Assembly (NCBI GenBank): GCA_022702545.1
Contig: JAHRBC010000002.1
Coordinates: 7,688,001 to 7,752,000 of the forward strand
Direction of reading: 5' to 3'
DNA: 64,000 nt
Origin: Phycomyces nitens
Taxonomy: Eukaryota; Mucoromycota; Mucoromycetes; Mucorales; Phycomycetaceae
Shown here: positions 1,890 through 60,546 of the stretch, piece after piece
Layout of the letters: the number at the start of each line of letters is the position of its first letter
Position numbering within the stretch: position 1 is the first letter of the stretch
Program-made: the position numbers and the translations under genes
Notes under the pieces: generated by a model
The model's database searches: none
Seen by the model: the letters and a program-made list of their open reading frames with translations, nothing else
What the model was told of the DNA's origin: nothing

Positions 1890-2800
1890 TCTATTTTACC
1901 AATCGATATTTCTTGGTCGGCACCATCAACTGGTTCTTAATAGAGCCAGGATACTTACCTAGCTGAGAGAAAGCCAATACTGTCTAAAAGTAAAAGAGAA
2001 GATTGTTAGTAAATTATTTTTATATAAATCATTCATTCTTATACTTACATTTTTAATATAATAAACAGAATCTTTGATAGACCCTCTGTATTATGCCAAC
2101 AAATAATCATTGTCTAATAGATATATGTTAATATTTGTAGATAGGCAATATATAATACTAAAATATTGGTTCACTTACAAGATATAGTCGTTGGAATGGC
2201 CAGATAATTTCAATTGGGAATTCATACAAGAGCATAGCAAGACATCTGTAATAGATATTATTAAAGAGAACATATTTATAATATAAAAGGTTTACCAGAA
2301 TATTATATTGAGATGGATAGAAAAATAGAATTTGCGGCTACATACAAAAGAGTGATTTGGTTAATAAAGAAGAGCTTTAGCATAATATGATCTTACCTTT
2401 GGATATACAGACATGTGCAATAGAGAGACCCCATTATATATTTATAAGCAGTTACCTATGAATAATAAAATATATTGAGTAAAAAATATATTTACAAGAG
2501 AAAGAAAAGAATTAATTATCAGAGTATTTTGCGGTAATATTTAGGCACAAAAGAATATAAAAAATAAAAAGAAAAATAAATACTTTGTATTAAAAGGCTG
2601 TTTGACCCTGATAAAATGCGGGCAATAAAAATGATAATCTAAAAGAATATGCCTGCCGTCATTTTCATATCTTTGTAATTTATAGTTTATTAGGTTGAAA
2701 AAGATGTCTAGATATAGAACAAGAGTGTACACAATGCTGTTAAATAACAATAAAACTACAAGACGATTCATTATTTTCAGTCAACCTCTTTACTTGCAAG
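1890..2800 (-). other. Micro-exon transcription unit of element B
   Basis: On the minus strand, running away from the accessory gene that starts at 2857, there is a chain of short segments bounded by GTAAGT-type donors and TAG/CAG acceptors. The last ones end ...ATATCTT/gtaagtg, ...TTAAAAAT/gtaagtat and ...CTCAGCTAG/gtaagtatc, with acceptors atctattag and tacttttag between them. No long reading frame exists in any frame. Position and architecture equal those of the units in A, C and D, but I see little sequence similarity to A and C. I infer a spliced transcript from splice-site patterns only. Confidence 0.5.
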
Positions 2801-15559: not shown

Positions 15560-16590
15560 TGTTCCTCTATTGTCTTGAAGCACTGAGATGCAAATCGGCC
15601 TTGATATTGTTTTTGGGCTCAATCTATCATGCTTTCCGCAGCATGCTTCAAAGGTGAAAAAATTTCAGACTCTCTCCTTTTTTTGGTTCCCTTTATTTTT
15701 CCTTTTCCTTGCTTTTTTGATATTGGCGCCTTTCTCTGGTAAGACATTTTTTATACCTCTTTATACACACAAATTAACCTCTTTTTCATAGATGTGCGCT
15801 CCCATTGCAACTCATCCTTTCCACAATGGCCATCTAGACAAATACTCACTGGCCGCATTCACTGGTACCATCATCTTGATAAAAATTATTTTCACTTTCT
15901 CTTTTAGATTGGCCAAACAACTTATATAGGGATGCCATCGGCACCAGGTAAAATTTTTTCTTTCAATCATACTTGTTCCCTCTCTGACTCTATTCCATTG
16001 TAGACTGCCCTTTCTATTCATGCCATCGGCCTCCTCCATCATTCGCAATTGTAATCATAAAGGTAATATTCTTTATAAATCTCTTTTTGCTTATCCAAAA
16101 TATTATTCAGATTATTTATTAATTATTATTATTATGTGTTTTATAGACTCACTTGGGCTTCCTTTACACACCATACCCCCTACTTTGATAACCCATTTGG
16201 CTCCTGGTATGTAAATTAAATATATCATCACTCTGTTCACCCATATTAATTTTTATTCCCTTTTTTATAGTAAAACCTGCCACACAGCCCATCCAGCCTT
16301 AAAATTCAAGTCCCCTTTGCGCACTCTTGCCCATCTCTTGCAATGTAAGTATCTTTTGACACACAAAAATTTTCTCTTTGTACCCCACATCATTAACACT
16401 TCTTTATCTTTTACAGAACACTCCTGCAGCCCAAAAATTGCTGGATATTCATATTTTTGCAGGTATTTTTTATGTAGAAAAATATTCCATCCAAATAGCA
16501 GCAAGCAACCGGGTAGAAACGGCTAGGCATAGGAATAGGCGTAATAATAGACCCTAAACCTAGAAACATTCTATTCTTTCCAATAAAAAT
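15560..16590 (+). other. Micro-exon transcription unit of element A
   Basis: Divergent from the accessory gene. Splice signals delimit short exons: 15792-15864, 15908-15947, 16004-16062, 16147-16206, 16271-16344 and 16417-16462 (73, 40, 59, 60, 74 and 46 nt), separated by 43-84-nt introns with GT...TAG/CAG borders. The unit ends with CATTCTATTCTTTCCAATAAA (16568-16588), a probable polyadenylation region. Exons and several introns align with element C exon by exon. One frame is open through the 40-, 59- and 60-nt exons but meets TAA in the 74-nt exon, so protein coding is doubtful. An upstream frame starts at 15588 but is not clearly joined. Confidence 0.6.
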
Positions 16591-26316: not shown

Positions 26317-26958
26317 ATGAATAACATTAAAAACAAAACATACAACCTCCTGTGCAAATGTTTGGCCTGTACCAAATATACAGCCAATGGAATATTGCAG
26401 AATGCACAGACATTCATGCGCCATAAGAATTCTGATAATGTGTCAAGCATTAGTCCCAAGGATAGAGATGATTGTAAGTGAAATTGTATATCATTATTCA
26501 TAATCTAATAATGTTTGTTGTTAATTATTACAGCCAATGTCAGAAGCACAGTTGAAGAAGAGTCAGATATCATAATGCCTGATGTTTCTAATGAGTTTAT
26601 TGATTGTAAGTGCGATATATTTTGGTTATCAATTACAGGTACTAACTTTTATTTTATTATAGATGAAGACAACTTTTCTATCATGTCAGTCGAAACTACT
26701 GGACAACAAATACCTTTCTTGAGAGAAGACGATGTTTTTGACGTTGAGGAGGAATCAGATGTTGAGTTATCATTCATTGCAGCTGACAATGAGGATTCCG
26801 ATTCAAATGATGAATCTAGCGATGAAGATGAGACTGAGATTGATGGCGGCAATGGTTTTGAACAAATGATGGCTTCAAGTATGCATACATAAAATACAAA
26901 CATATTTAATTGTATACAAGTTATTTATCATATACTTTCCTTTGTAGTTGGATCCCTG
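26317..26958 (+). pseudogene. tnp2 transposase of element E, part 1 (exons 1-3, start of 4)
   Basis: Exons 26317-26473, 26534-26605, 26663-26878 and 26949-26958. The first exon has the finger pattern LCKCLAC, NGIL, T, RH. Exon 3 is strongly acidic (DVEEESDVELSF, DSNDESSDEDETE), as in A-D. The coding exon 4 is interrupted after 10 nt by X2 and resumes at 30301. Confidence 0.75.
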
Positions 26959-27368
26959 CACTACGGCGGAAGGACCGGTAGCTGTGCCGAAAACGGTAGC
27001 ATAACTACCGTTTTTTATGATTTTTGAGCACTTTATCTCCGCAGATTGTGGTTGAAAGGTAATGTCATCGATGCCGATTCATAAAAGTCGCATGGAATGT
27101 CTTTTCATCAGGTAATGAGGTAGTTGTAGTACCATAGAAAGGGCTCGTAAGGTTTTAGGCAACGTTATTTATTGAAATGAGCATTTTATTTGGTGTTAAC
27201 GATGTTGCGCATTTTTGAGAAAAATAATTTTTCGCCTGTGTGAACAAAACGGTAGTTATGCTACCGTTTTTTTGAAACAATTTTTTTGTTTTTGACATTA
27301 TTAGCCATTTTATTTTATTTTATTTGGTATTGATATTTATAAAGAAAGAAAAAAGAAAAAGAAAATTT

Positions 27369-28356
27369 TTATAAAGTGGCAAGATTACCCCTGGTCACAT
27401 GCAGATTGTCATTAAACACATAATATGATGCAATGATAAAGAACTGATTACTACTCGGAGGGTACTGGATGAGCCCAACTTGATGCTGAATGTCATCCAC
27501 ATTAACAGCATATTTTGGCTGGGTTGTTTGTCCAGTTGAGCTGTGTGACCGCCGTATTACGATTGGCACAGATGAGTCATGGGCTGCTGTACCATGCTCT
27601 TTCATCACTTCAACGAATGCCAGAAAGTGCGGTGTGCCATCAACCTCTTTATGCTCAAAATAAAATTCCACGGTGCCAACAAACCAGCTTTGAATAGTTA
27701 TATTGCGACGGCTAGATAAAAATATAAAAAATGCGAGTGATCTCTATTTTGTATTTTGACTAATACCAATACTCACTTTCTGTATGGACAGGTGAACATC
27801 ACATGATGATTGCCACGTCTGGTCTCGTTTTTTATTCTTCGGTACATACATGAAGAATGTACGGTTGAATTTTTCCAAAGACGAGAAGCAACAACAATCG
27901 TCGGGTCATCAAGTTCAATACTGTCCATACCACTGTTTCGCACATAGTACTTTGCCAAAGTATTCTTGACAACAGGGCTGCTGACACCTTCCAAGTCATC
28001 ATCATTCAAGCTGGCATGTCAGTTGAATGGCTCCCATAGCTGGGCAGCACTTACACCATCTGGAAGATCTAAGAAACTTGCTTCATTATATGTGGACGGC
28101 TGACTTGTACTAGGATAATTCTGAGAGCTGTTTGCTGAACTGACAAAGCTATGAACAGCAAAGCGCTCAACAAGCAAACTGGCATTTCTACCGCCCTTCA
28201 AGTTTGACGTGATAAGCTTGGAGTATACTCTAATTACTTTTTCCATGGGTAGGTAAGAGATTATTTGACTAATAATAGCAACAGCAGCAAAGACACTTCT
28301 TGGTCAATAATGACAAAATCAACGTACCTGTCATCAATGATTGTGGCCAGTGAGGC
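27369..28356 (-). pseudogene. tnp2 3' remnant in X2
   Basis: Corresponds to the end of X1 exon 6 and exon 7: EKVIRVYSKLITSNLKGGRN, SLLVERFAVHSF, QLWEPF, VVASRLWKNSTVHSS, GNHHVMFTCPYRK, then VEFYFEHKEVDGTPHFLAFVEV-like sequence to the stop. A TGA follows WEPFN in all three deleted copies, so it predates their spread. No start region is present. Confidence 0.85.
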
Positions 28357-28775
28357 ACGGCTAGGACAATAGCACTCCACATTTACAAGTGCAAAAGAAT
28401 GTGGTGTGCCAAGAATCTTCTTCAAGACACCTTTAAGAGTGCAAACCAGACTTGTAAGAGAAAAATAGCAGAGAACAGCCAGGCAAGTTTATTAATTAAC
28501 AAACATTTGAATATACATTATAATTAATACAATATTTTTATTATGTTATAGCAGGAAAGAGCAAGCAGTTCTTTTCTTTCGGAAGATGAGGTATTTCAAA
28601 CGGATGACGAGGCTGAATCCCCAATCATGACAGATGTACTATAAGTTAGAGCTTTTTTGTTGCTCATCTATTCTCAATTTAATATTAATATAATATTTCT
28701 ACTGTTTGATATAGGTTTACACCACTAGGAATGAGCAATGAGCCTTCATCTAAGAGAAACAGACTAAGTCTTTAA
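28357..28775 (+). pseudogene. Accessory-gene 3' remnant in X2
   Basis: Matches the end of the X1 accessory gene: YKCKRMWCAKNLLQDTFKS, then the conserved GC-donor intron (CAG/gcaagt at 28482), an exon from 28555, and a last exon FTPLGMSNEPSSKRNRLSL. At the third intron the donor reads ct/ataagt instead of the X1 ct/gtaagt, so splicing there would fail. The basic C-terminal cluster is reduced to SKRNR. Confidence 0.75.
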
Positions 28776-28859
28776 TATTCTTTAGGCTGCTCTTATTGGT
28801 TCTCTCATATTTTTAGTATATGTTTTAGCGCACTTTTTCTTTTCCTCTTTTCCTTTAGC

Positions 28860-29290
28860 TGTTTTATCTTTGCTTTGGTCCTCTCCTTTGAAATAAAATC
28901 GAATAACTCTCCATCACGTAAGATTGCCACCTTAATAAATGCCCGATTGGCATCTTGTATACCACATCTTCAGCTCTGTTGTTTTTAATCTAGGAATGAA
29001 ACACACATCTCGCCCTTTTTCAAGCACCAAAAAAAATGAAATTTTTTTATAGCTGTATTACGCGCGAGGTTAGTTTATATTTCTTTTCTTTTCTTTGCTC
29101 TACTTTTTTGAAATAAAACTAAATGACCCTCCCTTATGTAAGGTTGTCAATTACATAAACATCCGATTGGAATCTTGTATACCACATCTTCAGCTCTGCT
29201 ATCTTTAATCAAGGAATGAAACACTCATCTCATAATTTTTCAGACACTAAAAAAAGGTGAAAATTTTTTACAGCTATATTACACTAAAGT
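28860..29290 (+). repeat. Diverged direct duplication in X2 (about 215 bp, two copies)
   Basis: Two blocks each contain TCTTGTATACCACATCTTCA followed by GCTCTG and a GGAATGAAACAC motif, spaced about 215 bp. X1 has the block once (near 7560-7760), whereas X2-X4 have it twice. The duplication therefore predates the amplification of the deleted form. Confidence 0.75.
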
Positions 29291-29564
29291 TTGTCGTTCC
29301 CCACCTCCCCACCTGGGAATCTCTGTGGAATATGCATATTGTTTTCTTAATGATGTACTCATTCTGCCAACTACCATTATATTCGAATTAGTTTTAAATC
29401 TTATGAGCTGACTTTACAGCAATATATTTTCTATGGTAAGAATATTATAATATGTTTACACTCTTTAATTAATCATATTGCGCATTCTCTATTCTCCTTC
29501 TACTGCATCTAGTATTTACATCTGTACGTTTCATATAGTGGCATTAATTCAAGAGATGCTTGGT

Positions 29565-29870
29565 ATACCGATTAACAAGCACAATATATACTGGTATGCT
29601 ATCCAAAACAATATGCTTGGTTTATTTGATCGCTTCATTCTCTGACCACAATATCTTTATAGTAATTGATGAAGACCAAAGGCCTTCCAAGTCATGACAG
29701 TGATTCACAACAAGATGCTCGGCACGCTGATTAACAAGCACAATATATACTGGTATGCTACCCAAAACAATATATTCGGTTTATTTGATTGCTTCATTCT
29801 CTGACCACAATATTTTTATAGCAATCGATGAAGACCAAAGGCCATCCAAGTCATAACAACATGTTGTTGG
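29565..29870 (+). repeat. Tandem duplication of about 160 bp in X2
   Basis: ATTAACAAGCACAATATATA starts two successive near-identical blocks (about 29569 and 29728). X3 has the same duplication (about 48328 and 48486); X4 has a single copy. This separates X2/X3 from X4 as a sub-lineage. Confidence 0.8.
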
Positions 29871-30300
29871 CATCGTGTATAGATTGAGTAAAAGGTTTGT
29901 ACCATATACGTTTTATAATATTAAATAGTATTTGCTTTTGGTATGTTTCTATATTATTATTATATATATTTTAATATTATTTGAAATAAATCGAAATTAT
30001 AATAAAAAATAAACCATTATTTCAAATAAATGGCAGTAAAAAAAGAATGGGTGCTAGTATATAAAGTAATATAAAAGAGAGGCTATAGTATATAAAGAAA
30101 CGATTTTGGTTGGATAAAAAAACGGTAGCTGTGCCTATTCCTGCCTCATAACTACCCTTTTTTTTCGCACTAAAAAAACGGTAACAGCTACCGAAATCGC
30201 CTTATACAGAGTCTTTACTACCGTTTTTTTTTGGTGGGAAAAAACGGTAGTAATGCTACCAAAACGGTAGTTAGCTACCGTTTTTTCCGCCATAGTGCTG

Positions 30301-31323: not shown

Positions 31324-32829
31324 ATGTACAACACTTTCAATAACGAAGTTCAATGCCAGTGCTCAGTCTGCTCTCTCGATGTCCAAGGATTTGTAGCAGT
31401 ATCTGCCCAAACAGCATGAAGACATGCTGATAACGATCTTGTCAGACATTTTATGCAGACAGCTTCTTGTAAGTAATATATATATAATTTGTTTGCATTT
31501 CAAAGTGTAATTAAACATTTTAAAAAATATAGCATTGTCAGCTGAAGCAATTCAGATGGAGAATGACAATAACATGGAGATTGATGCCGAGGTCCATGAT
31601 GTTGATGCTCATGTTGAATGTAAGTATAAAATTTTATTCAAATTGCATAATAAATTGCAGCCACTTGAATATTTACTTTTTTGCTCCAAAAAAAAAACAA
31701 TGGAAAACTTACCTGTGTCTGTTACCAATTTTTGTTTATAGCTGAAAATGAAGATGAGGATATCATTGAGCTTGATACAATGGAAGGCTCTGAATATGAA
31801 GCTGAAGAATTTGAAGGTTAGTAAAAGTACAAGAAAAACATAGATATCATATATTAATATACAAAACCCAAATAGAACAATTCTCATCCTCCAACATGCC
31901 AGCGGATAACACCCATGCTTTCATTGCTGCCTTTGCCACCTTTTTCATATCAAAATATGTTGTAAACTCTGGAGGAGCAATTTTGATCAAGTTCCTCAAT
32001 GAGGTTTTGGCGCACTTTGGCGAATCATTCCATCTGCCATTGAGTTTGAGTGGTCTTTCCTCCATGACAGGGTTCAACCAAGTCTGCAAAGGTGTCCAGC
32101 GCTACGTGGTGTGTGGCGAGTGCCACAAGACATACATGGAGTTTGACGGTGTTCCCCAGTGCTGCAACTTCAGAAGACTTTCTGGCGGTATATGTGGCGC
32201 CGATCTCTTCAAGCCTTCGAGAAACGTAGCACTGCCAAAGAAGGTGTATATGTACAACTCCTTGATTTCTGCCTTGTCCGTTCTCTTCTGTCGCCCTGGA
32301 TTCGAAAGCAGTATCAATCACTGGAGACATAGACAGCAAGTTGCAGGCATGATGTTTGATGTCTATGATGGTGCTAAGTGGAGCAATATGGAAGACAGCA
32401 ATGGTCAGCAATTTGTGGCTCATGAACAATCAATCATGTTGACTCTAAACATCGATTGGTTTCAACCTTTTGATGGGGTTACTTACTCTTGTGGGGCAAT
32501 CTACATGTCCATAAACAACTTGCCACAAGACGAACGATACAAGAAGGAGAACACCATTCTTGTTGGCCTCATGCCTGGCCCAAAAGAAGCCAAGACCAGT
32601 GAGATCAATCACTACCTCCGTCCTCTTGTTGCCGAGCACCAATCCTTGTATGTGGGTGTGGTGATCCCTACTGTGCGCTGTCCTTCTGGTGCTCTTGTCC
32701 GTGCTGCTCTTTTCCTTGTTGCCTGTGACATTCCTGCTGCTCGCAAGACATGCAGATTCACGTCCCACATGAGCACCAATGCCTGCCACAAGTGCAATCG
32801 CCAGTTCTCCCATCTCCCAGGGAATGGTG
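31324..32829 (+). pseudogene. tnp2 transposase of element D, 5' part
   Basis: Exons 31324-31468, 31533-31619, 31742-31816 and 31876-32829; then element C interrupts. Exon 1 holds the finger QCQCSVC, GFVAV, T, but has TGA (31417-31419) where B has CGA (Arg) just before the conserved RH. Core motifs: SKYVVNSGG, DVYDGAKW, NIDWFQPFDG, LVGLMPGPKEAK, CDIPAARKTC, CHKCNRQFSHLPGN. All exon sizes summed with the 3' part give a multiple of three. Confidence 0.88.
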
Positions 32830-32949
32830 CACTGGAAAAACGGCCCTGAATACACTGGTGGTATAGTAGCCCTGAACTGGTGTGAAAGCTAGTCTATTTT
32901 TCAACTCCACAGTTTTCCTTTTTTTTTATTTCGAAAATATAATTTTACT

Positions 32950-32966
32950 ACATCCTATTGGTTCGG
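32950..32966 (+). promoter_or_regulatory. Conserved inverted CCAAT box upstream of C tnp2
   Basis: ACATCCTATTGGTTCGG ends 108 nt before the ATG at 33074, the same spacing as in element A. The probable NF-Y-type site lies in an otherwise AT-rich leader. Confidence 0.5.
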
Positions 32967-33073
32967 ATACAATGAGCATTAGAATATTACTTTTTATTAT
33001 TATAAAAGTATAGCAAATAAAATACATGTAACACTCGTTTCCTTTTAATAATAATATTACAAACACAAACATC

Positions 33074-36000
33074 ATGTCTTCTTCCAACAGTATTTACAAC
33101 ACCAAGTGCTATTGCACTGTATGCGGTGATAATGAAGAAGGATTCACCTATGTGACAAGAAGAACTGTCCAACATCATAACAAAAGAGCCAGAGTAGATG
33201 CAGTATTCACATCTTCAAGGGGTATTTTATTTAAAACAACAGAGTATACTTGTATATTAATATTATATTATAAATAAAGACTCTCAAAGAGAAATGATGG
33301 AAGTTGATTCTGAGTGTAAGAAATATATTTATTTAAATGTCAATGGTGTCTAACACACTATTATATTCTATATTTGTAGCTGTCATGACTTACCAACCTG
33401 GTCCCGTAGAAGAGGGCGGCCAAACAAATGTTCCTGTTTTGGAAATTGAGTCCATGCCTGCCAACGATGTCTCCATTGAGAATCGCGATGATGACAATGA
33501 GATCTCGGTTGAGAATGACGATGGCGCCAGTGATGATGAAGATGTTGTTGAGCTTGAGCTTGAGGAGTTGGATGCCGAAGGTTTGTACATAATCATTGAA
33601 TAAAAGAAAAAGCCTGAAAAATTGAGTATTAATATTTTCTCTTTTTTTTTACAATAGCCCCTTTTGAAGCCCCTGGTATGCCTGAGAACCCAGTTCACAA
33701 GTTTATCGCCATCTTCACGGTCCTTTTTACATCCCGCTACGTGGTCAACAAGGGTTCCATTGTCTTGATCGAGTTCATCAATGAGCTCTTGAAGATTTAC
33801 GAGCAGGATTTCCAGCTTCCAATAAGTCTTCTTGGGCTCCAAAGAATGACTGGATTTTCCGAGATATCCAAGGGAATCCACAGATTTGTAGCATGCCAAG
33901 ATTGCCATCAAATCTACGATGAATGCATGACAGTTCCTCCCACCTGTGTGTTCCAGAAGCTTGGATCCAACTCTGTCTGCGGGTGTAAGTTGGTGAAGGA
34001 GTCGTCTGTTGGTGCCTTGGCCCCAAAAAGGGTGTTTGTCTATCAATCTGTCAAGCATGCTATGAAGACACTCTTTCTTCGCCCTGGCTTTGAGGCCAGA
34101 ATCAGACACTGGAACTCAGATCTCAAGATTCCACAGACAATGTGCGATGTCTACGACGGCGCCATGTGGAAGGACGTCAAGGACATCAACGGCGCCCAGT
34201 TTACAGCGGATCCGCGCTCCCTCATGTTGGCTCTCAACATCGACTGGTTCCAACCTTTCGATGGTGTGGTGTACTCTTGTGGTGCCATTTATTTGGTCAT
34301 CAATAATCTACCTCGGGAGGAGCGATTCAAGCCAGAAAACACCATCCTCGTTGGTCTTATGCCTGGACCAAAAGAGCCAAAGTCAGAGGAGATCAACCAC
34401 TACCTGGAGCCGTTGGTAGATGAGTTGAACGAGCTCTATGTTGGAATGAATATTCCAACATTTGAGAGGCCAACTGGTGCCAGTGTCCGTGCTGCACTAA
34501 TGATGGTGGCGTGTGACATCCCAGCAGCAAGAAAGACCAGTGGATTCACCGCCCACAACAGCACATGCACATGCTACAAATGCAATCATCAGTTCTCTCG
34601 TCTGGAAGGCACGACCAGTGTAGATTTCCGCGGTTTCGAGTTTGCTGAGTGGAGGCTTGCGAGTGGTGCTGAAAACCGGGTGCATGCTGAGGTGTGGAAA
34701 AGTGCAAGTACATCCTCAGAAAGACATCAGCTGGAGGTCGAAAATGGTGTTCGATGGTCGCAGCTGCATCGTCTTGGATACTTTGATCTAGTACGTGGAA
34801 CGATCATCGATCCCATGCACAATCTCTTTCTGGGCACGGCAAAAAGAATGGTGGAAAAGTGGACTGCCAGTGGTCTGATCGTAGACAGGGATCTTCGCGA
34901 GATGCAGAAGATAGCCAAGACCATGGTACTGCCTGTTGGCTACAGCATGCTGAAGACGAAGATTGGCAAGGGGTTCCCCAGGATGAAAGCTGACGAATGG
35001 AAGTCGTGGGTATTGGTGTACTCTCCGGTTTTGCTGAAGTACGTTCTTCCACCAGCAAACTTTGCCAACTGGATCGATTTCGTGGACGCATGTCGTATTC
35101 TGGTCAAGCCAACAATAACGTATGATGATGTCGAGTCAGCTCACCTCCATCTCCAGCAATTCTGTCAATCGTGCGAAACGCTTTACCCTGCTACAATCCT
35201 CACCTGCAATATGCACCTGCACCTCCATCTTCGTGACACCGTTCGTGATTTTGGACCCGTGTACGGTTATTGGCTCTTTGGGTTTGAGAGATTCAATGGC
35301 TTGTTAAAGAATATTAACACGAACAGAAGAGATGGGTTTGAGATGACCTATATGCGAAACTTCCTGGAAGATGCATACAAGAGTGACTATGTCAATGCCG
35401 TTTTTCCCAATTCGAGCCAAGTCCTCTTTTCTCCTGTTCTCCAGAAACTCACGTCCACCACACCCACCATCCTCTCCTCTCCCTCTACAACCTACTGCAC
35501 ATTTGACTTGCAAGACTTTCTTCGACTCTCCAACGATGCAACAATTCTTGTCAAAGGCAATGAACCGCTCCCTCCGTCTGCATTTCCTCTCTTGACCAGT
35601 AAGCCTTCCTCAATAAGTGATGTCCACTATCCTTTTTTGTTGGAGTATTACAAGAAGCAGTATGACATTCCAGACCTAGTGGACTATCGTCACGCCTCCC
35701 TCTCGCCGTTTTTCGTTGATAATCAGATTGGCAAACTGAAATCAATTGATATTCTAGGCCAAACATACGTTGGCAAGAATAGTTCTGTCAGTCGTGGGTC
35801 TTTTGTCCAGGCACTGTTCCTTGGCAGATACGGCGACCATGCAAATGCATATACTGGCCAAATCCAGTATATGTTTACTCATTCCTTCATGCCACCAACC
35901 AACCAGACAATCTGCTCAAGTCATGGAATCCAGCACACCGAGCATGTTTTTGCATTTGTCCGATGGCTTCCTCTGTCTTCAGATAGATCACGAGAAGACG

Positions 36001-36158
36001 ATGGTGTGGACATTTGCCTGCCTGAATTTTCAGATGATGACTATCAGTGCATCCTGCCTGTTCATCGCATCTTGCTTGAGGTGGCCACTGCCAAATATAC
36101 AAAGAACAATGAGACGACAACACTAGTCATTCCTCTGCCAAAAAAGCAATATGCTTAA
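33074..36158 (+). CDS. tnp2-type CACTA transposase of element C, intact
   Basis: Exons 33074-33221, 33280-33315, 33380-33580 and 33658-36158, about 961 residues, no stop or frameshift. N-terminal finger: CYCTVC, GFTYV, T, HH. An acidic segment (DDDNEISVENDDGASDDED) spans exon 3. The core has FTSRYVVNKG, CQDCHQIYDE, DVYDGAMW, NIDWFQPFDG, NNLPREERF, LVGLMPGPKEPK, CDIPAARKTSGF, CYKCNHQFSRL, DPMHNLFLGTAKRM, KADEWKSWVLVYSP, then the C-terminal NMHLHLHL, FGPVYGYWLFGFERFN, KGNEPLPPSAFP, YTGQIQYMF, ILPVHRILLEVA. It would bind and cut the CACTG ends. The Asp residues of DWFQPF and DPMHN are likely catalytic, from family resemblance. It faces the accessory gene, 127 bp between stops. Confidence 0.93.
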
Positions 36159-36285
36159 ATAAATAAATAAAAACATCTTTCCTCCAAGGCAAACAATTTT
36201 ACCTTCTAAGTATGTTATTAAGACAAACTGTAACAATCAGCTTAAGAAGAGATTTTTTTTTTTAATTTTTTAATTGTTTAATTTT

Positions 36286-37415
36286 TTATTCGTCATCTCT
36301 GACGGTCCACTGTGGTGGTGGGGGGAGCATGCTGTCAGGGACTGGTTTGGTCACGACACTGTGGAAGCATCTTTCCATCAGCTGTCGAGAATTGTTGCCC
36401 AAGTCGACACGGGCATACAAGTCAACCATTTCGAGGAAATGGTTGAACTAAAAGGACAATTAGTTTCTATTTATTATATTTCAAAAACAATAAACTTGGC
36501 TGGAAAACAATTTACCTCGTTGCTTCGCCAACTTGGGCGCTTGACGTGAACGATGCGCACACCTGGAGTCCCAGGTGTCTCATCACCAGACTCACCATCA
36601 GACATTGCTCCTTTCTGAATGAGATTGGAGCAATCCCTACCCATTGCAGCATCAATGGCAGCCTTGTTCTTGGCATAGGTAAGGCCACGGCGTTTGAGGT
36701 GCTATAGATCAATTGGTATTAATATTACTCTTAAAACTAAGCTCTGATTAGAATATAAAACACAACTTGCATCACCCTCACAAGAAGAGCGCCGTGTCTT
36801 TGCCTTTGCGGCATCCCTCTTGCTAGAAGTCTGGGACTCCAGGTGACACCAACTGCGGAAGTGGTTGTGAACCTTTTCACGGATGTCACTGTTTCGCAAC
36901 CTGGGGTCCCGAGACCTTTGCACCAGGAAGGCCATTAGGTTGTCCACCAACTCTTTATTTGGACTGTCGTTGAAGAAGACCTTGGTGTTCCACCTGGGCT
37001 TCCTGTTGTTGGCCTCAATTTCGGCCTGGTCATTCGACCTGAACCTTGGCGTCCACATGTAGCCATGAATAAGTCTCTATTTTATAGCATTAAATTAGTG
37101 AATTATTATTACTCTGTTACTTACAATCACTTCCGTGAGGTCCTTTGGTTTTGGCTCAGGAAGAACATTGCCAGTAGTGCTGACAACTGGGGCCACAGCA
37201 ACAGGAACCACTGGCCCAGCATTTGAAGGCTGACCAGTGTTGGTGTTGCCTCCAACATTGGTACCACTTTGGCCGTTCATGGTGGTATATGCTTGTTTGA
37301 GAAAGCCTACGTCGTTGCTTATTGTCAAGACAGTTTGCTTCATAGCAATTATCTCCTCCATCATCCGAGGATTCTCTGCATTGGGCTGAGGAGCGAGTGC
37401 GCATCTGTTTGCCAT
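36286..37415 (-). CDS. Accessory protein of element C (RPSWRSDE family), intact
   Basis: Minus strand; exons 37415-37125, 37076-36771, 36701-36516 and 36447-36286, about 314 residues. Intron 2 uses a GC donor (GAT/gcaagttg). Exons 2-4 are 306, 186 and 162 nt as in A. Exon 1: coiled-coil start (MMEEIIAMKQTVLTISNDV) and a Gly/Asn/Pro/Val-rich linker. Exon 2: NRKPRWNTKVFFNDSPNKEL, HFRSWCHLE, basic end (KTRRSS). Exon 3: MGRDCSNLI, MSDGESGDE, RPSWRSNE at the splice site. Exon 4: FNHFLEMVDLY, PPPPQWTVRDDE. No known domain recognised. Position opposite the transposase gene is the same in A, B and D, so it is a fixed part of the element, perhaps a subterminal-repeat binder. Confidence 0.85.
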
Positions 37416-37849
37416 TGTCTAAAGAATATTAAAATAGTCAGTGTCAATTATATTATACTGTGTCTGGATTTAATATAAATGATATTCTTTACTTGTAACT
37501 AAAAAGATAATAAGATGATGAGAACACAAAAGAGTGAGAAAGAACAAGTCAATTATACGAAAAGCATATTATATATTAATAGCCATATACATGGCTGTAT
37601 CCAAAAAGACTTCTTGTAGACTATCAGAGTTGATATCGGCAATCAAAATTGTCCTTTATTAATTAACTAGTGAGTTGGTCTCTTTGGATAAAGAAAAAGA
37701 CTTTGTAAAATCGGTTTTTATATATATATACTTTGGGTTTATTCTATAACACAATTAATATTACTATTCATTTAGCTTTAAATCTATTTGTCTATATATT
37801 TTATTCTGTTTAAATTATACAGGCTCTTTAACAATAAACATTATCCATC

Positions 37850-39185
37850 TATCCCGAAAACCTTATTCTTTGAACCAAACGATTCTTGATAGTGTTGATT
37901 ACACAGCTTTTTTTTCACATTGATTCTGCGCCTTTATTGTAAGCCCAAGAAAATAATAAACAGCAGACTGAAACCTAGCAAAGCATATTAATCGCTCAGG
38001 ATATATTTTGGATTCCATCCATTACACCTATTCTGTCTCTATTTCAAATTCGATGTGGGCCCTTGTAATTAATCTCTCTTTTTCCCTATATCCGCGCCAA
38101 TTTACTTTTCTCTTTACACTCCCATAAACACAGGCTGATTCCGATGCATCCTTTCCACATTGCCCATCCAGGTTAACAATCATCAGTTAAACTCTCTGTA
38201 ATCTTATAATTTATTCTGACTCTCTCTCTTTCTATCAATCTTATAGACCTCTTTGACTCACACATCTCATTATATTATACTGTCATCGGGACCATGGTAA
38301 AAAGTCTTTTCAAATCAAAATTTTCCTTATCTGACTTTGTTTACTCTGCAATAGACCACCCCTGCCATTCACCCCATCTGCCTCTTCCATAATCTACGGC
38401 TGCTATCATGATGGTAATGCCGTTTCTTGTTCTTTATACTTTTCTATAATATTATTTCCGTTTGCTCTTTTTATCTTATAGCCCTATTCCACCCGCATGG
38501 CCTATTATATAGCACCATCATCAGTGCCCAGGTAAAAAAACTTTTTTGTGTCAAAAAAAAATAATTTTCTTTTCTAACGTTGCTTATTCTAATTTAGGCT
38601 ATCACCATCACTGTCCACCCCATCTGCCTCTCTCATCATCTACGACTGGTTATCATAATGGTAATGCCGTTTCTTGGCCTTTATTCTTTTCCATAATATT
38701 ATTCTGGCTATTTACTAATAATTTTTTATACTCTTAACAAGACACTATTATTGGCCGCCATATACCATCCCTCTACTATAATCACCAACTCTGTTTTTGG
38801 TATGTAAATAAATTTTTCTATCACTCAATTCACCCATATTAATTTATTTTATCCCATCTCTAGTCAATCCAATCATACAAGATGCCATGTCACACAATTC
38901 AGCCCCTCTTTGTCCATTCTTATCCAATCTTTGCAATGTAAGTATAATATCCCTCGCATCTTGAATAGCACCCGCACTCTTGAATATATATCGCTAATAT
39001 AACTTTTATTATATCAGAACACTACCGCAACCACCTAAATTGCCGCCAGACCCTATTTTCAGGTATTGTTCAGTAGAGAAGCACCCGATCCAAGTAGTAT
39101 CAAGTAGGCTGGTAGAAGCGGCAAGGATAGACCGTAATAGTATTAGAACTCGTGTATAGAACCATTCTATTCTTTCCAATAAACA
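37850..39185 (+). other. Micro-exon transcription unit of element C, with a duplicated exon pair
   Basis: Divergent from the accessory gene. Exons delimited by splice signals: 38247-38296, 38355-38413, 38482-38531, 38598-38660, 38742-38799, 38864-38937 and 39018-39062 (50, 59, 50, 63, 58, 74 and 45 nt). The 59- and 74-nt exons have exact size partners in A. The last intron donors (gcaat/gtaagtat) and the intron TTCACCCATATTAATTT are also shared with A. Exons 38482-38531 and 38598-38660 with the following GTAATGCCGTTTCTTG repeat the preceding pair. It ends CCATTCTATTCTTTCCAATAAA near 39163-39184. No frame stays open through the exons. Confidence 0.65.
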
Positions 39186-39646
39186 CAAATATAAACCATA
39201 AACAACCTAATAAGTACGGGATATAAAATAATTGAGAGTATATCACTGGTCGAGAGTAATAAAGAGGATACCAAAATCAATAAATAATGGGCTATCTACT
39301 GTAGGCAAAGTACCTTATACTACAGTTATGTGACTTCTCAAGGGTGTAGGCAAAGGAACCTCGCCATTCTATTTTTAATAGACTTATTGAATATAATAAA
39401 ATTAAAACTGAGATTTGCATAGGTAATTCTGGTATTCACTTCAAGTTGACATATTAAGAATACTAACTCCCCTTACTAGCATCACCCCTAGTGGACTAAA
39501 CACCAGTGTTTAGCGCGAAAATGCTCAGGCACCAAAGGTACCTTGTGCACTAGGCATTTGTTCACATAAACTCCAGTATATACCTTACCTTTGTCCAGGA
39601 ATATACCTACCTATATACCAGTGTATATCAAATGGTTTTCCCAGTG
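39186..39646. other. Non-coding right terminal region of element C
   Basis: No gene. Near the end TATACC and ACTGGTATATA-like motifs recur (39575-39625); the left end of C has TACACTGGTGGTATAG in the matching position, so these are probably subterminal repeats. Confidence 0.55.
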
Positions 39647-39649
39647 GTG

Positions 39650-42749: not shown

Positions 42750-43500
42750 TATTATGTTTTTGGGATTATTGATTTTAGAGACCACACTTTTTTTAGGGGT
42801 AAACCACCTTGGAACTCAAATTATTTTTTGTTCTTTCTCTTTTGCCTCTTGCTCTTATACACATACTGGTAATTATTTTATTCTTATTATTTTATGTAAT
42901 TACTTAATAATTTTGCCATTATCTTTACAGATCATCAACAAGCTTCTTCTCTTTGGTCATTTTACATGGTTTAATAACATAAAATAATATTTGCTCAAAG
43001 CTTCTCTTTACTAATGACTTGATGCCTCCAGTCATCACGGCTTTGCATGTCACTCAATCTTGTAATCAAATATCATGGTAAGCTATTATATTATTACAAA
43101 TTATATATATCTCTTTACTTATACATATATAACTATGTTCTATTCTCTATTAGATATATTAAGAATCTCATCCGCATGCCTGAACAAACAATCACACAGG
43201 TAAGAAAACCGCTGATAATATAGTATATATGAATATCTAGAACACTAATAACTTTACAATTCTTAGACAATCTCAACTGACAGCTAATATGCTGAGATAT
43301 TCTCATGAATCTATCAAGTAGTCCATCTACTCACGATATCAACATTGTAAGTACAACAGCAAATAATTTGATCCATTATGATTATTTAATTAATCTTTGC
43401 TCCTATTACTATTAAATAGCACCATTCTTCTCCAAGACAGTACCCAATATCTATCAGGTAGGAACTTGTTGGTCTTGCTAGATGCAAAATATCAAACAAT
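42750..43500 (+). other. Micro-exon transcription unit of element D
   Basis: Divergent from the accessory gene at 42539. Short exons end at donors such as acatactg/gtaatt, atatcatg/gtaagc, atcacacag/gtaaga, tcaacatt/gtaagt and tatcag/gtagg, with acceptors ttacag, tctattag, attcttag and taaatag between. Joining the exons ATATATTAAG... and ACAATCTCAA... gives stops in all three frames, which argues against coding. The order (a longer exon ending in gtaagt, then a final exon of about 40 nt ending CAG/gta) is the same as in A and C. Confidence 0.55.
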
Positions 43501-43643
43501 ACTCTAGAAATAGCATATATTATTATTATATGATTAGAGCATTCATCTAGAAATATATATATTAAATAAATAAAAAATAAATAAAAAACAATTTATTTTT
43601 TAAAAATCAACAAATGAGGCTTGTATGTAAACGTATGATACGG

Positions 43644-44097: not shown

Positions 44098-45721
44098 GAT
44101 CAAGAGAGACTGTTGAGAACACCTTCCTTGACATATATGATGGTGCAATGTGGAATGAGTTGCTCGATGATAATGATATGCCATTTGTTGATGATAACTA
44201 TTCTCTCATGTTGACATTGAACGTGGATTGGTTTCAGCCATTCGATGGGCGCACTCATGCCAGTGGTGCGTTGTATCTGTCAATCAACAACTTGCCCAGG
44301 GAAGAAAGGATGAAGCCAGAAAATATCATTCTTGTTGGTGTCATGCCAGGGCCAAAGGAAGCAAAGACTGATCAGATGAACAGCTTTCTTGAGCCTCTTG
44401 TTGACGAGTTGGTTGACTTCTACAGTGGAATGACAATCAAGATGGCCATGTTCCCTGGTGGTGTTCGTGTTCGTGCTGCTCTCATGTGTGTTGCCTGCGA
44501 TATACCAGCTGCAAGAAAAACCGCGGGATTTACAGGGCATGCAAGCACCAACGCCTGTCACAAGTGTGCACGTCAATTTTCGGTGATCGATGGATCAAGC
44601 AAGATTGATTACTCTGGATTTGACGTCGATAATTAGACACCAAGAGAAAAGGCAACCAATGCTGTGCATGCTGAAATGTGGTTCAATGCAGAATTAGACG
44701 TTGAACAAGCAGAGTTGGAGAAGCACAATGGTACCCGGTATTCTGAATTGCATCACCTACACTACTTTGATCCTGTCCAGTGTACAATTGTGGATCCTAT
44801 GCACAACTTGTTTCTTGGCACAGCCAAACAGATGGTCAACATTTGGAGAGACCTCGGTTATTTTCCCAGCACCACTCTTGCCCGCATGCAACATCTGGCA
44901 GATTCCATTCTTGTTCCTCCTGGATATGCTGTATTGTCCAACAAAATTGCTTCTGGGTTCCCATATATGAAGGCAGACAAGTGGCAATCGTGGTGTCTTG
45001 TGTATTTGCTGGTTGTCCTGGAGAATGCTTTGCCAGAAACAGACTACAATAACTGGCTAGTATTCATTGATGCATGTTGCCTATTGACAGGACCATCTGT
45101 CACAACCCAGAGTATAGATGAAGCACACCAGCTCCTTGGTGATTTTGGCGAAAAGTGCGAGATATTGTATGGAACTGTCAGTATCACGCCAAACATGCAT
45201 CTGCATATGCACTTACGTGAGTCCATGCTTGACTTTGGCCCTGTCTATGCATTCTGGTTGTATAGCTTTGAACGATACAATGGCAAGCTCAAGAACATCA
45301 AGACAAATCACCGCAATGGATTCAAGGTCACTTTCATGAAGGTCTTCTTGGAAAAGGGATTCATCAGCAACTTTCTTCAGTTCTATTCTGCCAAACTTTC
45401 ACCACCCATGGTAGAATTTCTCCAAGAAGTTGCTCAAATAACACCGACGCCTGTCAGATCCTTGGTGAACTCTGAGTACGGCCACCCTCCACATCTTCAA
45501 TTCAACCTCAACATGTTCCTCCAAGCTGCCACCAATCCATGGTTTAATGTCACTGGAAGTGAAGCCCTGCCATTGACCTCATTGCCATTGAAATTGTCGC
45601 CTTTATCTATAATGACTGGCAATCATTATAAGTACTTGGTCGAATTTTATAACAAGGCTTACCAAGACACTGGCATTTCCTTCTGTGCCACGGATAGCAT
45701 CCCACTTGGAGGGCATGTCTA
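44098..45721 (+). pseudogene. tnp2 transposase of element E, part 3
   Basis: Resumes after D: FLDIYDGAMWNELL, NVDWFQPFDG, NNLPREERM, LVGVMPGPKEAK, CDIPAARKTAGF, CHKCARQFSVI, a TAG at about 44635 where other copies have Trp, then ELHHLHYFDPVQCTIVDPMHN, KADKWQSWCLVY, NMHLHMHLRES, FGPVYAFWLYSFERYN. Interrupted by X3 at 45722 and continued at 48999. Confidence 0.88.
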
Positions 45722-46129
45722 CACTACGGCGGAAGGACCGGTAGCTGTGCCGAAAACGGTAGCATAACTACCGTTTTTTATGATTTTTGAGCACTTTATC
45801 TCCGCAGATTGTGGTTGAAAGGTAATGTCATTGATCCCGAATCATAAAAGTTGCATGGAATGTCTTTTCATCAGGCAATGAGGTAGTTGTAGTACCATAG
45901 AAAGGGCTCGTAAGTTTTTAGGCAACCTTGTTTATTGAAATGAGCATTTTATTTGGTGTTAAAGATGTTGCGCATTTTTGAGAAAAATAATTTTTTGCCT
46001 GTGTGAACAAAACGGTAGTTATGCTACCGTTTTTTGAAACAATTTTTTTGTTTTTGACATTATTAGCCATTTTATTTTATTTTATTTGGTATTGATATTT
46101 ATAAGGAAAGAAAAAGAAAAAGAAAATTT

Positions 46130-47116
46130 TTATAAAGTGGCAAGATTACCCCTGGTCACATGCAGATTGTCATTAAACACATAATATGATGCAATGATAA
46201 AGAACTGATTACTACTCGGAGGGTACTGGATGAGCCCAACTTGATGCTGAATGTCATCCACATTAACAGCATATTTTGGCTGGGTTGTTTGTCCAGTTGA
46301 GCTGTGTGACCGCCGTATTACGATTGGCACAGATGAGTCATGGGCTGCTGTACCATGCTCTTTCATCACTTCAATGAATGCCAGAAAGTGCGGTGTGCCA
46401 TCAACCTCTTTATGCTCAAAATAAAATTCCACGGTGCCAACAAACCAGCTTTGAATAGTTATATTGCGGCGGCTAGATAAAAATATAAAAAATGCGAGTG
46501 ATCTCTATTTTGTATTTTGACTAATACCAATACTCACTTTCTGTATGGACAGGTGAACATCACATGATGATTGCCACGTCTGGTCTCGTTTTTATTCTTC
46601 GGTACATACATGAAGAATGTACGGTTGAATTTTTCCAAAGACAAGAAGCAACAACAATCGTCGGGTCATCAAGTTCAATACTATCCATACCACTGTTTCG
46701 CACATAGTACTTTGCCAAAGTATTCTTGACAACAGGGCTGCTGACACCTTCCAAGTCATCATCATTCAAGCTGGCATGTCAGTTGAATGGCTCCCATAGC
46801 TGGGCAGCACTTACACCATCTGGAAGATCTAAGAAACTTGCTTTATTATATGTGGACGGCTGACTTGTACTAGGATAATTCTGAGAGCTGTTTGCTGAAC
46901 TGACAAAGCTATGAACAGCAAAGCGCTCAACAAGCAAACTGGCATTTCTACCGCCCTTCAAGTTTGACGTGATAAGCTTGGAGTATACTCTAATTACTTT
47001 TTCCATGGGTAGGTAAGAGATTATTTGACTAATAATAGCAATAGCAGCAAAGACACTTCTTGGTCAATGATGACAAAATCAACGTACCTGTCATCAATGA
47101 TTGTGGCCAGTGAGGC
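46130..47116 (-). pseudogene. tnp2 3' remnant in X3
   Basis: Same content as in X2, including the TGA after WEPFN. One A is missing from the run encoding the segment after YRRIKN (near 46590), giving a frameshift relative to X2 and X4. No promoter or start. Confidence 0.85.
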
Positions 47117-47534
47117 ACGGCTAGGACAATAGCACTCCACATTTACAAGTGCAAAAGAATGTGGTATGCCAAGAATCTTCTTCAAGACACCTTTAAGAGT
47201 GCAAACCAGACTCGTAAGAGAAAAATAGCAGAGAACAGCCAGGCAAGTTTATTAATTAACAAACATTTGAATATACATTATACTTAATACAATATTTTTA
47301 TTATGTTATAGCAGGAAAGAGCAAGCAGTTCTTTTCTTTCAGAAGATGAGGTATTTCAAACAGATGACGAGGCTGAATCCCCAATCATGACAGATGTACT
47401 ATAAGTTAGAGCTTTTTGTTGCTCATCTATTCTCAATTTAATATTAATATAATATTTCTACTGTTTGATATAGGTTTACACCACTAGGAATGAGCAATGA
47501 GCCTTCATCTAAGAGAAACAGACTAAGTCTTTAA
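47117..47534 (+). pseudogene. Accessory-gene 3' remnant in X3
   Basis: Same as in X2: YKCKRMW start of similarity, GC-donor intron, mutated third donor (ct/ataagt), and end SKRNRLSL with the stop at 47532-47534. Confidence 0.75.
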
Positions 47535-48998
47535 TATTCTTTAGGCTGCTCTTATTGGTTCTCTCATATTTTTAGTATATGTTTTAGTGCACTTTTTCTT
47601 TTCCTCTTTTCCTTTAGCTGTTTTATCTTTGCTTTGGTCCTCTCCTTTGAAATAAAATCGAATAACTCTCCATCACGTAAGATTGCCACCTTAATAAATG
47701 CCCGATTGGCATCTTGTATACCACATCTTCAGCTCTGTTGTTTTTAATCTAGGAATGAAACACACATCTCGCCCTTTTTCAAGCACCAAAAAAATGAAAT
47801 TTTTTTATAGCTGTATTACGCCGAGGTTAGTTTATATTTCTTTTCTTTTCTTTGCTCTACTTTTTTGAAGTAAAACTAAATGACCCTCCCTTATGTAAGG
47901 TTGTCAATGACATAAACATCCGATTGGAATCTTGTATACCACATCTTCAGCTCTGCTATCTTTAATCAAGGAATGAAACACTCATCTCATAATTTTTCAG
48001 ACACTAAAAAAAGGTGAAAATTTTTTACAGCTATATTACACTAAAGTTTGTCGTTCCCCACCTCCCCACCTGGGAATCTCTGTAGAATATGCATATTGTT
48101 TTCTTAATGATGTACTCATTCTGCCAATTACCATTATATTCGAATTAGTTTTAAATCTTATGAGCTGACTTTACAGCAATATATTTTCTATGGTAAGAAT
48201 ATTATAATATGTTTACACTCTTTAATTAATCATATTGCGCATTCTCTATTCTTCTTCTACTGCATCTAGTATTTACATCTGTACGTTTCATATAGTGACA
48301 TTAATTCAAGAGATGCTTGGTATACCGATTAACAAGCACAATATATACTGGTATGCTATCCAAAACAATATGCTCGGTTTATTTGATCGCTTCATTCTCT
48401 GACCACGATATCTTTATAGCAATTGATGAAGACCAAAGGCCTTCCAAGTCATGACAGTGATTCACAACAAGATGCTCGGCACGCTGATTAACAAGCACAA
48501 TATATACTGGTATGCTACCCAAAACAATATATTCGGTTTATTTGATTGCTTCATTCTCTGACCACAATATTTTTATAGCAATCGGTGAAGACCAAAGGCC
48601 ATCCAAGTCATAACAACATGTTGTTGACATCGTGTATAGATTGAGTAAAAGGTTTGTACCATATACGTTTTATAATATTAAATAGTATTTGCTTTTGGTG
48701 TTTCTATATTATTATTATATATATTTTAATATTATTTGAAATAAATCGAAATTATAATAAAAAATAAACCATTATTTCAAATAAATGGCAGTAAAAAAAG
48801 AATGGGTGCTAGTATATAAAGTAATATAAAAGAGAGGCTATAGTGTATAAAGAAACGATTTTGGTTGGATAAAAAAAATGGTAGCTGTGCCTATTCCTGC
48901 CTCATAACTACCCTTTTTTTTGCACTAAAAAAACGGTAACAGCTACCGAAATCGCCTTATACAGAGTCTTTACTACCATTTTTTCCGCCGTAGTGCTA

Positions 48999-49310: not shown

Positions 49311-50672
49311 CACTACGGCAGAAAAAACGGTAGCTAACTACCATTTTGGTAGCATTACTACCATTTTTTCCCACCAAAAAAAATGGTAGTAAAGACTCTG
49401 TATAAGGCAATTTCGGTAGCTGTTACCGTTTTTTTAGTGCAAAAAAAAAGGGTAGTTATGAGGCAGGAATAGGCACAGCTACCATTTTTTTTATCCAACC
49501 AAAATCGTTTCTTTATACACTATAGCCTCTCTTTTATATTACTTTATATACTAGCACCCATTCTTTTTTTACTGCCATTTATTTGAAATAATGGTTTATT
49601 TTTTATTATAATTTCGATTTATTTCAAATAATATTAAAATATATATAATAATAATATAAAAACATACCAAAAGCAAATACTATTTAATATTATAAAACGT
49701 ATATGGTACAAACCTTTTACTCAATCTATACACGATGCCAACAACATGTTGTTATGACTTGGAAGGCCTTTGGTTTTTATCAATTGCTATAAAGATATTG
49801 TGGTCAGAGAATGAAGCAATCAAATAAACCGAATATATTGTTTTGGATAGCATACCAGTATATATTGTGCTTGTTAATCGGTATACCAAGCATCTCTTGA
49901 ATTAATGCCACTATATGAAACGTACAGATGTAAATACTAGATGCAGTAGAAGGAGAATAGAGAATGCGCAATATGATTAATTAAAGAGTGTAAACATATT
50001 ATAATATTCTTACCATAGAAAATATATTGCTGTAAAGTCAGCTCATAAGATTTAAAACTAATTCGAATATAATGATAATTGGCAGAATGAGTACATCATT
50101 AAGAAAACAATATGCATATTCTACAGAGATTCCCAGGTGGGGAGGTGGGGAACGACAAACTTTAGTGTAATATAGCTGTAAAAAATATTCACCTTTTTTT
50201 AGTGTCTGAAAAATTATGAGATGAGTGTTTCATTCCTTGATTAAAGATAGCAGAGCTGAAGATGTGGTATACAAGATTCCAATCGGATGTTTATGTCATT
50301 GACAACCTTACATAAGGGAGGGTCATTTAGTTTTACTTCAAAAAAGTAGAGCAAAGAAAAGAAAAGAAATATAAACTAACCTCGGCGTAATACAGCTATA
50401 AAAAAATTTCATTTTTTTTGGTGCTTGAAAAAGGGCGAGATGTGTGTTTCATTCCTAGATTAAAAACAACAGAGCTGAAGATGTGGTATACAAGATGCCA
50501 ATCGGGCATTTATTAAGGTGGCAATCTTACGTGATGGAGAGTTATTCGATTTTATTTCAAAGGAGAGGACCAAAGCAAAGATAAAACAGCTAAAGGAAAA
50601 GAGGAAAAGAAAAAGTGCACTAAAACATATACTAAAAATATGAGAGAACCAATAAGAGCAGCCTAAAGAATA

Positions 50673-51094
50673 TTAAAGACTTAGTCTGTTTCTCTTAGAT
50701 GAAGGCTCATTGCTCATTCCTAGTGGTGTAAACCTATATCAAACAGTAGAAATATTATATTAATATTAAATTGAGAATAGATGAGCAACAAAAAAGCTCT
50801 AACTTATAGTACATCTGTCATGATTGGGGATTCAGCCTCGTCATCTGTTTGAAATACCTCATCTTCTGAAAGAAAAGAACTGCTTGCTCTTTCCTGCTAT
50901 AACATAATAAAAATATTGTATTAAGTATAATGTATATTCAAATGTTTGTTAATTAATAAACTTGCCTGGCTGTTCTCTGCTATTTTTCTCTTACAAGTCT
51001 GGTTTGCACTCTTAAAGGTGTCTTGAAGAAGATTCTTGGCACACCACATTCTTTTGCACTTGTAAATGTGGAGTGCTATTGTCCTAGCCGTGCC
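50673..51094 (-). pseudogene. Accessory-gene 3' remnant in X4
   Basis: Reverse-strand counterpart of the remnants in X2 and X3, with the conserved GC-donor intron and end SKRNRLSL. It meets the tnp2 remnant at the deletion junction near 51094. Confidence 0.75.
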
Positions 51095-59405: not shown

Positions 59406-59459
59406 ATCATCAGAGTTATTTTTCACCCATTTTTTTAAAAAAAACCCAAATTGCCAGTA

Positions 59460-60512: not shown

Positions 60513-60514
60513 TG

Positions 60515-60546
60515 CCCGCGTAAGCGGGGAAGGAGCGTAAGCTCCT
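60515..60546 (+). terminator. Twin GTAA-loop hairpins at the Helitron 3' end
   Basis: CCCGC-GTAA-GCGGG (60515-60528) and AGGAGC-GTAA-GCTCCT (60531-60546) are perfect stems with identical loops. Helitrons typically end with a short hairpin that terminates rolling-circle transfer; two in a row with the same loop is unusual. The usual CTRR after the hairpin is not clear (GGTCTATA follows). Confidence 0.6.

Follow-up and report, generated by a model that had tools for sequence, protein, structure and literature searches.

Four Tnp2/CACTA transposons (elements A to D) lie in the analysed window, a stretch of 64,000 nucleotides of Phycomyces nitens (contig JAHRBC010000002.1, assembly GCA_022702545.1), and each of them carries an array of GT-AG introns between its accessory gene and its right end. 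Judged by its sequence, this array very probably has the anatomy of a spliced, non-coding unit, and we tentatively favour the explanation that it is a product-free cassette whose transcription, splicing and termination are what is useful to the element, probably in cis. The initial annotation had proposed a third gene of the element, perhaps a spliced non-coding RNA: such a unit, carried by many CACTA families, is supported by the strength of its splice signals, the conservation of its donors, frame-shifting exon indels and its constant place, while a functional exonic RNA is not, since the exons change at least as fast as the introns, Rfam gave no match, covariation is not convincing and the predicted RNA folds little.

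Element C (32830..39646, plus strand) is a complete CACTA-type element, delimited by terminal inverted repeats with a CACT(A/G) start (CACTGGAAAAAC at 32830 and TTTTCCCAGTG ending at 39646) and flanked on both sides by a GTG 3-bp target duplication (32827-32829 and 39647-39649). Read together across the insertion site, the flanks belonging to element D restore an open transposase frame (i.e. an empty site in frame), so that C is nested in the transposase of D. Its components follow in the order transposase gene (33074..36158, plus strand; introns near the 5' end, main exon 33660-36158), accessory protein gene (36286..37415, minus strand; convergent with the transposase and divergent from the unit), spliced unit (plus strand), approximately 465 nt and right end. 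The main exon of the transposase matches PF02992 Transposase_21 (Tnp2; E 1e-20, 74.2 bits against a cut-off of 28.6) and shows 100% identity, along 99% of its length, with a protein of Mucor saturninus, and 127 nt separate the stops of the transposase and the accessory gene. The accessory protein of C has no Pfam match at E 1, and the four relatives found for it belong to Mucor saturninus (three) and Phycomyces nitens (one). It evolves very fast (23-58% identity to C's over the matched stretches in six other elements), and this fast gene adjoins the non-coding unit, the 3' half of which is the most conserved part.

All seven exons with canonical splice sites that the initial annotation had described in C were recovered on the plus strand (50 nt, 38247..38296; 59 nt, 38355..38413; 50 nt, 38482..38531; 63 nt, 38598..38660; 58 nt, 38742..38799; 74 nt, 38864..38937; 45 nt, 39018..39062), the first two being exons E1 and E2 of module copy 2 and the following two E1 and E2 of module copy 1 (modules are described below). 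Upstream of them lie the predicted promoter region and 5' end of the unit (37416..38133, plus strand) and a further exon of 38 nt (38134..38171) with a weaker upstream intron, which the annotation did not contain. Also new is a final intron (39063..39146, GTATTG to ATTAG), which the 45-nt exon enters through an acceptor/donor-like junction (TATTTTCAG|GTATT) and which leads to the start of the terminal exon (39147..39183, with CATTCTATTCTTTCCAATAAA at 39163-39183). In total, C has about eight introns of 58-84 nt (more module copies bring more introns in other families), and its unit ends at a conserved AATAAA region approximately 465 nt before the right terminus. The final introns of the other three elements were likewise absent from the annotation. 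In A (15792..16587, plus strand) the exons span 15792-15864, 15908-15947, 16004-16062, 16147-16206, 16271-16344 and 16417-16462, with the final intron at 16463-16550 and the terminal exon from 16551; in D (42931..43570, plus strand) they span 42931-43077, 43154-43199, 43267-43346 and 43420-43457, with the final intron at 43458-43537 and the terminal exon from 43538; in B (1959..2455, minus strand) they span 2455-2397, 2337-2296, 2245-2179, 2113-2049 and 1983-1959, with the final intron running from 1958 downwards. This last intron of B is split by another element (approximately 535-1888, minus strand) inserted at TA, which by its look is Tc1/mariner-like and is missing from copy L085.

The four units follow a common plan: exons mostly of 25-80 nt (with the exception of a 147-nt one in D), GTAAGT as the last donor but one, a short exon that ends with AG|GTA, a last intron of approximately 80-100 nt, and then a short terminal exon with AATAAA. 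That A carries the same unit as C is confirmed by their homology (66% identity over 576 nt, E 5e-26; A exons of 40, 59, 60, 74 and 46 nt) and by the intron core, the gcaat|gtaagtat donor and the CATTCTATTCTTTCCAATAAA sequence that both contain. The equal 59-nt exons to which the annotation had drawn attention do have equal lengths but do not correspond, and their equality is partly coincidence, as the A exon aligns with the 63-nt exon of C, and the 59-nt exon of C is a paralogous module copy; the 74-nt exon is indeed equal in A and C, and measures 79 or 89 nt in some other families. For B and D the claim of the same architecture holds for the plan (each has its own array in the same place) and fails for the sequence, all unit pairs among A to D other than A-C lacking a significant match (best E 0.010 to 0.031). 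In the last short exon (39054-39067 in C, with equivalents in A, B and D) a pyrimidine-rich AG is directly followed by a donor, in the manner of a recursive splice site, and the nine bases before the TATTTTCAG|GTATT join show zero changes on the tree of 69 units introduced below.

Across the genome scanned (49 Mb in 11 contigs; L-numbers denote individual unit copies or families there) we found at least 41 matches to the unit of C, at least 41 to that of A, at least 40 to that of D and at least 42 to that of B (40 candidates scored for each). The poly(A)-side 21-mer CATTCTATTCTTTCCAATAAA recurs at 405 places with at most 2 mismatches, and its reversed pattern at 0. Many of the scored Transposase_21 places (the best 150 of 785 candidates) sit in open frames of 829-867 aa, and thus several families look recently active. 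Among the 57 transposase-domain matches listed on contigs C1 and C4, 33 are followed on their own strand, at a distance of 4.3-5.9 kb, by the exact motif, and three have it at 2-8 kb on the opposite strand. From 100 motif places listed, 73 were taken (27 near-identical A and C copies being left out) and, together with A and C of the window, they make up a sample of 75 units, all with the exact motif because they were found by it. Intact units, defined by a single match of at least 640 nt over the last 770 nt, number 69 (the six others are L009, L015, L025, L036, L046 and L060). A minus-strand accessory frame lies within reach of 48 of the 75 units (49 with a wider query set), and those without one include long arrays that fill the examined stretch as well as interrupted units. 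Four copies (L041, L062, L068 and L077), approximately 99% alike upstream, have kept the unit and the right end of the L012 family, and in L041 the 790 nt upstream of the unit, when translated, show no long frame; by these features they are possibly a non-autonomous family that retained the unit.

Much of the variation among units concerns a module of two exons and two introns (approximately 220-245 nt, typically 235 nt), of which, counted by exon E2, L017 and L054 have one copy, C and L011 two, L012 and L024 four, L018 five and L013 six. The distance from the accessory start codon to the motif is 1133 nt in L017, 1458 nt in L011, 1747 nt in C, approximately 1900 nt in L012 and L024, and 2141 nt in L018. 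The modules of C were detected by a profile search and not reported by Tandem Repeats Finder; the C-derived profile query detected none in A-type units, where the 59-nt exon of A nevertheless aligns with E2. In 38 modules of 12 units the E1 acceptor is kept in all 38, the E1 donor in 31, the E2 acceptor in 30 and the E2 donor in 36, most of the losses being shared module types.

With donor and acceptor weights trained on 16 coding-gene introns of the window (none of them from the units; introns of 45-110 nt), the best intron chains scored 44.3 in C, 42.2 in A, 41.4 in D and 51.5 in B, in each element above all 300 dinucleotide shuffles, and reverse-strand chains scored 26.9, 13.9, 14.0 and 25.5, respectively. 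Across the intact units (n=69) the four donors nearest the 3' end are retained almost throughout (GTAAT in 67, GTATG in 68, GTATT in 68, and the GTAAGT that follows the 74-nt exon of C in all 69), a fifth donor further upstream reads GTAA in 59 (eight of the remaining ten being apparently shifted by one base), and the acceptor AG is present in 66, 60 (and nine more if a one-base shift is allowed), 68 and 69 of them. On the tree of these units the donors (+1 to +5) underwent 0.20 changes per site (n=20), as against 0.87 in the intron bodies (n=204; p 0.0016) and 1.16 in the exons (n=240), which are not slower than the introns (p 0.99); with 18 distinct units the values were 0.40, 1.00 and 1.18 (p 0.0097). 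Donor sites are hence 2.5-6 times slower-evolving than introns or exons, in a test that comprises few sites, picked as canonical in C, and that assumes a single tree, an assumption which exchange among the families breaks. A and C agree at 94% of 18 donor bases, 78% of 9 acceptor bases and 60-61% of the positions in exons and introns; here, as in the rates, the figures for the tail, the last intron and the terminal exon are approximate (the final intron having gone unrecognised or been taken 4 nt short), and the donors are unaffected. The exons of the transcript that the initial annotation called conserved are therefore not so relative to the introns, the conserved sites being the donors. Decay of the splice sites at the pace of the introns, which had been named as evidence against a spliced unit, is not seen at the donors, while the constraint on the acceptor AG alone is not significant (p 0.15 with 18 units and 0.12 with 69, where one of the four acceptors was misplaced; n=8 each). 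Two exon-junction patterns, searched as signs of spliced retrocopies, had 0 matches in the genome, a weak indication given one junction each.

These rates weigh on the reading of the unit as a trans-acting long non-coding RNA, the spliced exons of which would act, e.g. by binding a host or element factor. The conserved place, donors and terminal exon are in line with it, and so is the base composition: the sense-strand G content of the four units (9.7-10.3%) lies within the bottom 1% of 700-nt windows taken from the two strands, so that the RNA would fold little, and such an open, G-poor RNA could expose binding sites. The folding energy of the predicted spliced RNA is -0.10 kcal/nt in C, -0.15 in A and -0.12 in D (-0.33 for 600 nt of transposase coding sequence); this low folding is mostly a matter of composition, since only C stands out as less folded against shuffles of equal composition (z 2.6; A 0.6 and D 0.7, not clearly). 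We regard a trans-acting RNA as unlikely, given that the exons change no less than the intron bodies, that the number of modules varies from 1 to 6, and that Rfam gave no match, either for the whole window at the gathering threshold or for 37850-39300 at E 0.5. Moreover, the 3' end yielded only a weak consensus fold (-5.1 kcal/mol, 14 sequences), which has no convincing covariation, as in six of the seven pairs with changes on both sides these are confined to four of the 14 sequences, which is the number of A-type ones. A host gene for snoRNAs or other small RNAs finds no backing in the Rfam search, which placed no known small-RNA family within the introns.

C was compared part by part with L011, L012 and L017. 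Their transposases share 63-71% protein identity with that of C (dN/dS approximately 0.1) and differ from it at 0.67-0.73 of the silent sites (i.e. at saturation), and nucleotide identity amounts to 0.67-0.70 in the transposase main exon, 0.44-0.65 in the accessory exons and 0.50-0.59 between the genes. Along the unit it increases from 0.44-0.66 in the 5' part to 0.75-0.79 in the modules and 0.87-0.92 in the last introns and exons, reaching 0.94-0.98 in the final intron (which in C ranks with the best-conserved stretches of the element in all three pairs), 0.87-1.00 in the terminal exon and 0.85-0.89 just past the motif, and the rest to the right end is unalignable (0.46-0.51). In these three family pairs the 3' half of the unit is thus the most conserved DNA despite saturated silent sites in the transposase, which, on these identities, would reflect either extreme constraint or exchange. 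The transposase of A, about equally far from five others (67-73%), is accompanied by a unit that is only 0.60-0.63 identical to theirs. The break in right-end identity is sharp, approximately 55-75 nt after AATAAA, and the right ends beyond the common motif region (39185-39646 and L009-L081) are of unrelated kinds: by eye, C, A, L024 and L054 stand apart from L010, L011, L012 and L017, with 78% identity between C and L024 and most others unalignable.

Exchange was mapped in L024, which is close to C in its transposase (0.87, four-fold sites 0.36 different), its right end (78% identical) and its accessory coding region (0.81-0.88, vs approximately 0.5 for L012), and has a unit that is 0.87 identical to that of C and 0.90 to that of L012, an element from which it is remote in transposase (0.65, four-fold sites 0.53 different) and right end (unalignable). 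The units of L024 and L012 each have four modules, which agree in type, and two decayed sites are common to both. L024 resembles L012 (0.86-0.99, vs 0.42-0.83 for C) between approximately the start codon of the accessory gene (-1900) and approximately -500, is near both over the final 500 nt preceding the motif (0.82-0.93 and 0.88-0.92), and past the motif is again C-like (0.94, 0.62, 0.88 and 0.82, vs 0.74, 0.42, 0.48 and 0.50 for L012). The left limit of the exchanged segment thus falls near the accessory start codon, and the right breakpoint cannot be placed within the last 500 nt, where both C and L012 are close to L024. The C-like flanks around an L012-like middle indicate that the promoter passed between these two lineages (in either direction) together with the array, or at least most of it; read as such a mosaic, L024 shows that cassette exchange occurred at least once.

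Such observations could also be accommodated by a relic, that is a once-useful spliced gene which drifts, is carried along by recent transposition bursts and is homogenised by exchange. The likeness among copies (94-100% for most of those listed for A, B, C and D), the similar rates of exons and introns, and the loss of some module splice sites as shared types would agree with drift of this kind. We consider it improbable, because the donors change several-fold less than their surroundings and match between A and C far better than the exons (94% vs 60%), because the arrays of B and D do not resemble those of A and C in sequence, and because the unit is far more alike than the transposase silent sites in three family pairs.

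Alternatively, the region might serve at the DNA level, as a subterminal stretch of repeated binding sites for the transposase or the accessory protein that is splice-like by accident. Its vicinity to the right end and its tandem modules would suit such a role, as would the strong conservation that extends approximately 55-75 nt beyond AATAAA and the four L041-type copies that keep unit and right end (with no long frame upstream in L041). In CACTA subterminal regions the two ends of an element have their repeats in common; the left end of C contained no copy of the unit, the best match there being 10 nt long and of the chance kind. As, furthermore, the splice chains beat the shuffles in four elements and conservation is centred on the donors, we judge this alternative to be decidedly unlikely.

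With respect to coding potential, the exon lengths in the 18 distinct intact units (74/79/89, 55/57/58/59, 45/46/47 and 58/59/60/63 nt, another exon exceeding that of C by 7 nt in L011 and L010) change by 1, 5 or 7 nt across the compared units, and in D, where the initial annotation had seen one exon join closed in all frames, two exons of 147 and 80 nt lack an open frame in any of the three phases; on both grounds the unit is not a protein gene. The longest spliceable frames (65 aa in C, 148 in A, 89 in D, 98 in B and 101 in L017) all fall within their own 40 shuffles, and three accessory genes, run through the same method as positive controls, gave 278-317 aa, above all of theirs. The lack of a conserved coding frame is what is expected of a long non-coding RNA gene (the longer frames of L011 and L018 being noted). 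A protein-coding gene, with some exons missed or with alternative splicing that is rare, is consequently very improbable and was rejected: the frame open over three exons of A, which the annotation had pointed out, and the spliceable frames of 209 aa in L011 and 247 aa in L018, which exceed the best of 40 shuffles and have nothing comparable in C, are outweighed by the closed exons of D, the frame-changing indels, the mere 65 aa of C and substitutions with no clear codon-position pattern.

We therefore return to the product-free cassette. The unit would be read outwards from the intergenic region that it has in common with the divergent accessory gene, and selection would keep the act of splicing and 3'-end formation and not the spliced message. 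It would make the element resemble an intron-rich host gene, keep the promoter common to both genes in an open state, resist silencing by small RNA or heterochromatin, and stop transcription before the right terminus. Convergent transposase and accessory genes could, by our own reasoning, yield double-stranded RNA. A cis device that mimics an intron-rich host gene would fit the product-free exons, the gain of modules and the exchange of cassettes, as intron-module gain and array swapping between families are expected of a dosage-like device without a product. In its full form (a third gene without product, made of amplifiable introns and a promoter, swapped as a cassette and serving the element selfishly, by splicing that shields it from silencing through small RNA or chromatin) the proposal is possible, if rather doubtful, and its anti-silencing step in cis is inferred by analogy with other eukaryotes. 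If confirmed, it would mean selection on splicing itself, and not on the message, in a mobile element; the natural copies with 1 to 6 intron modules would offer a ready dose series, the idea that genes are shielded from silencing by their introns would be directly testable in a fungus with RNAi, and the CACTA plan would gain a non-coding, exchangeable third module.

The elements described here share with CACTA (En/Spm) and fungal Tnp2 elements the Transposase_21, the CACTG-type ends, the 3-bp duplication and a second protein gene, and differ from them by the third, non-coding, intron-dense unit. Stalled spliceosomes are reported to feed RNAi in Cryptococcus (SCANR; Dumesic 2013), where poor introns are said to trigger silencing; the likeness lies in transposon introns tied to RNAi in a fungus, and the difference in the donors, which are strong and kept in the units. 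In C. elegans, and in plants as the same source cites, nuclear RNAi is impeded by introns (PMC5554785), and introns also counteract HUSH silencing in human cells (PMC10915761), which resembles the effect proposed for the unit, although both barriers were shown on reporters and transgenes and not on a dedicated intron array in a transposon; RNAi is described in Mucor circinelloides (PMC6386414). The closest precedent among CACTA-type elements is SmTRC1 of Schistosoma mansoni, which has spliced transcripts, some outside the transposase frame, that are read as alternative protein-coding products (SmTRC-PrA, PrB and PrC; PMC1636069), whereas the unit here has no shared frame. Spliced transcripts apart from the transposase frame are accordingly known already, and the predicted non-coding array is apparently new: the titles and abstracts of the open-licence literature searched contained no CACTA element with such an array, in agreement with the initial annotation.

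The window holds two further kinds of repeat. Another element is present in three near-identical copies (26956-30122, 45719-48921 and 49442-52488; 95-100% alike in most stretches), which contain internal repeats of the AACGGTAG type and of which the third is inverted, and a 43-bp unit forms a tandem array of at least 20 copies at 59453-60569.
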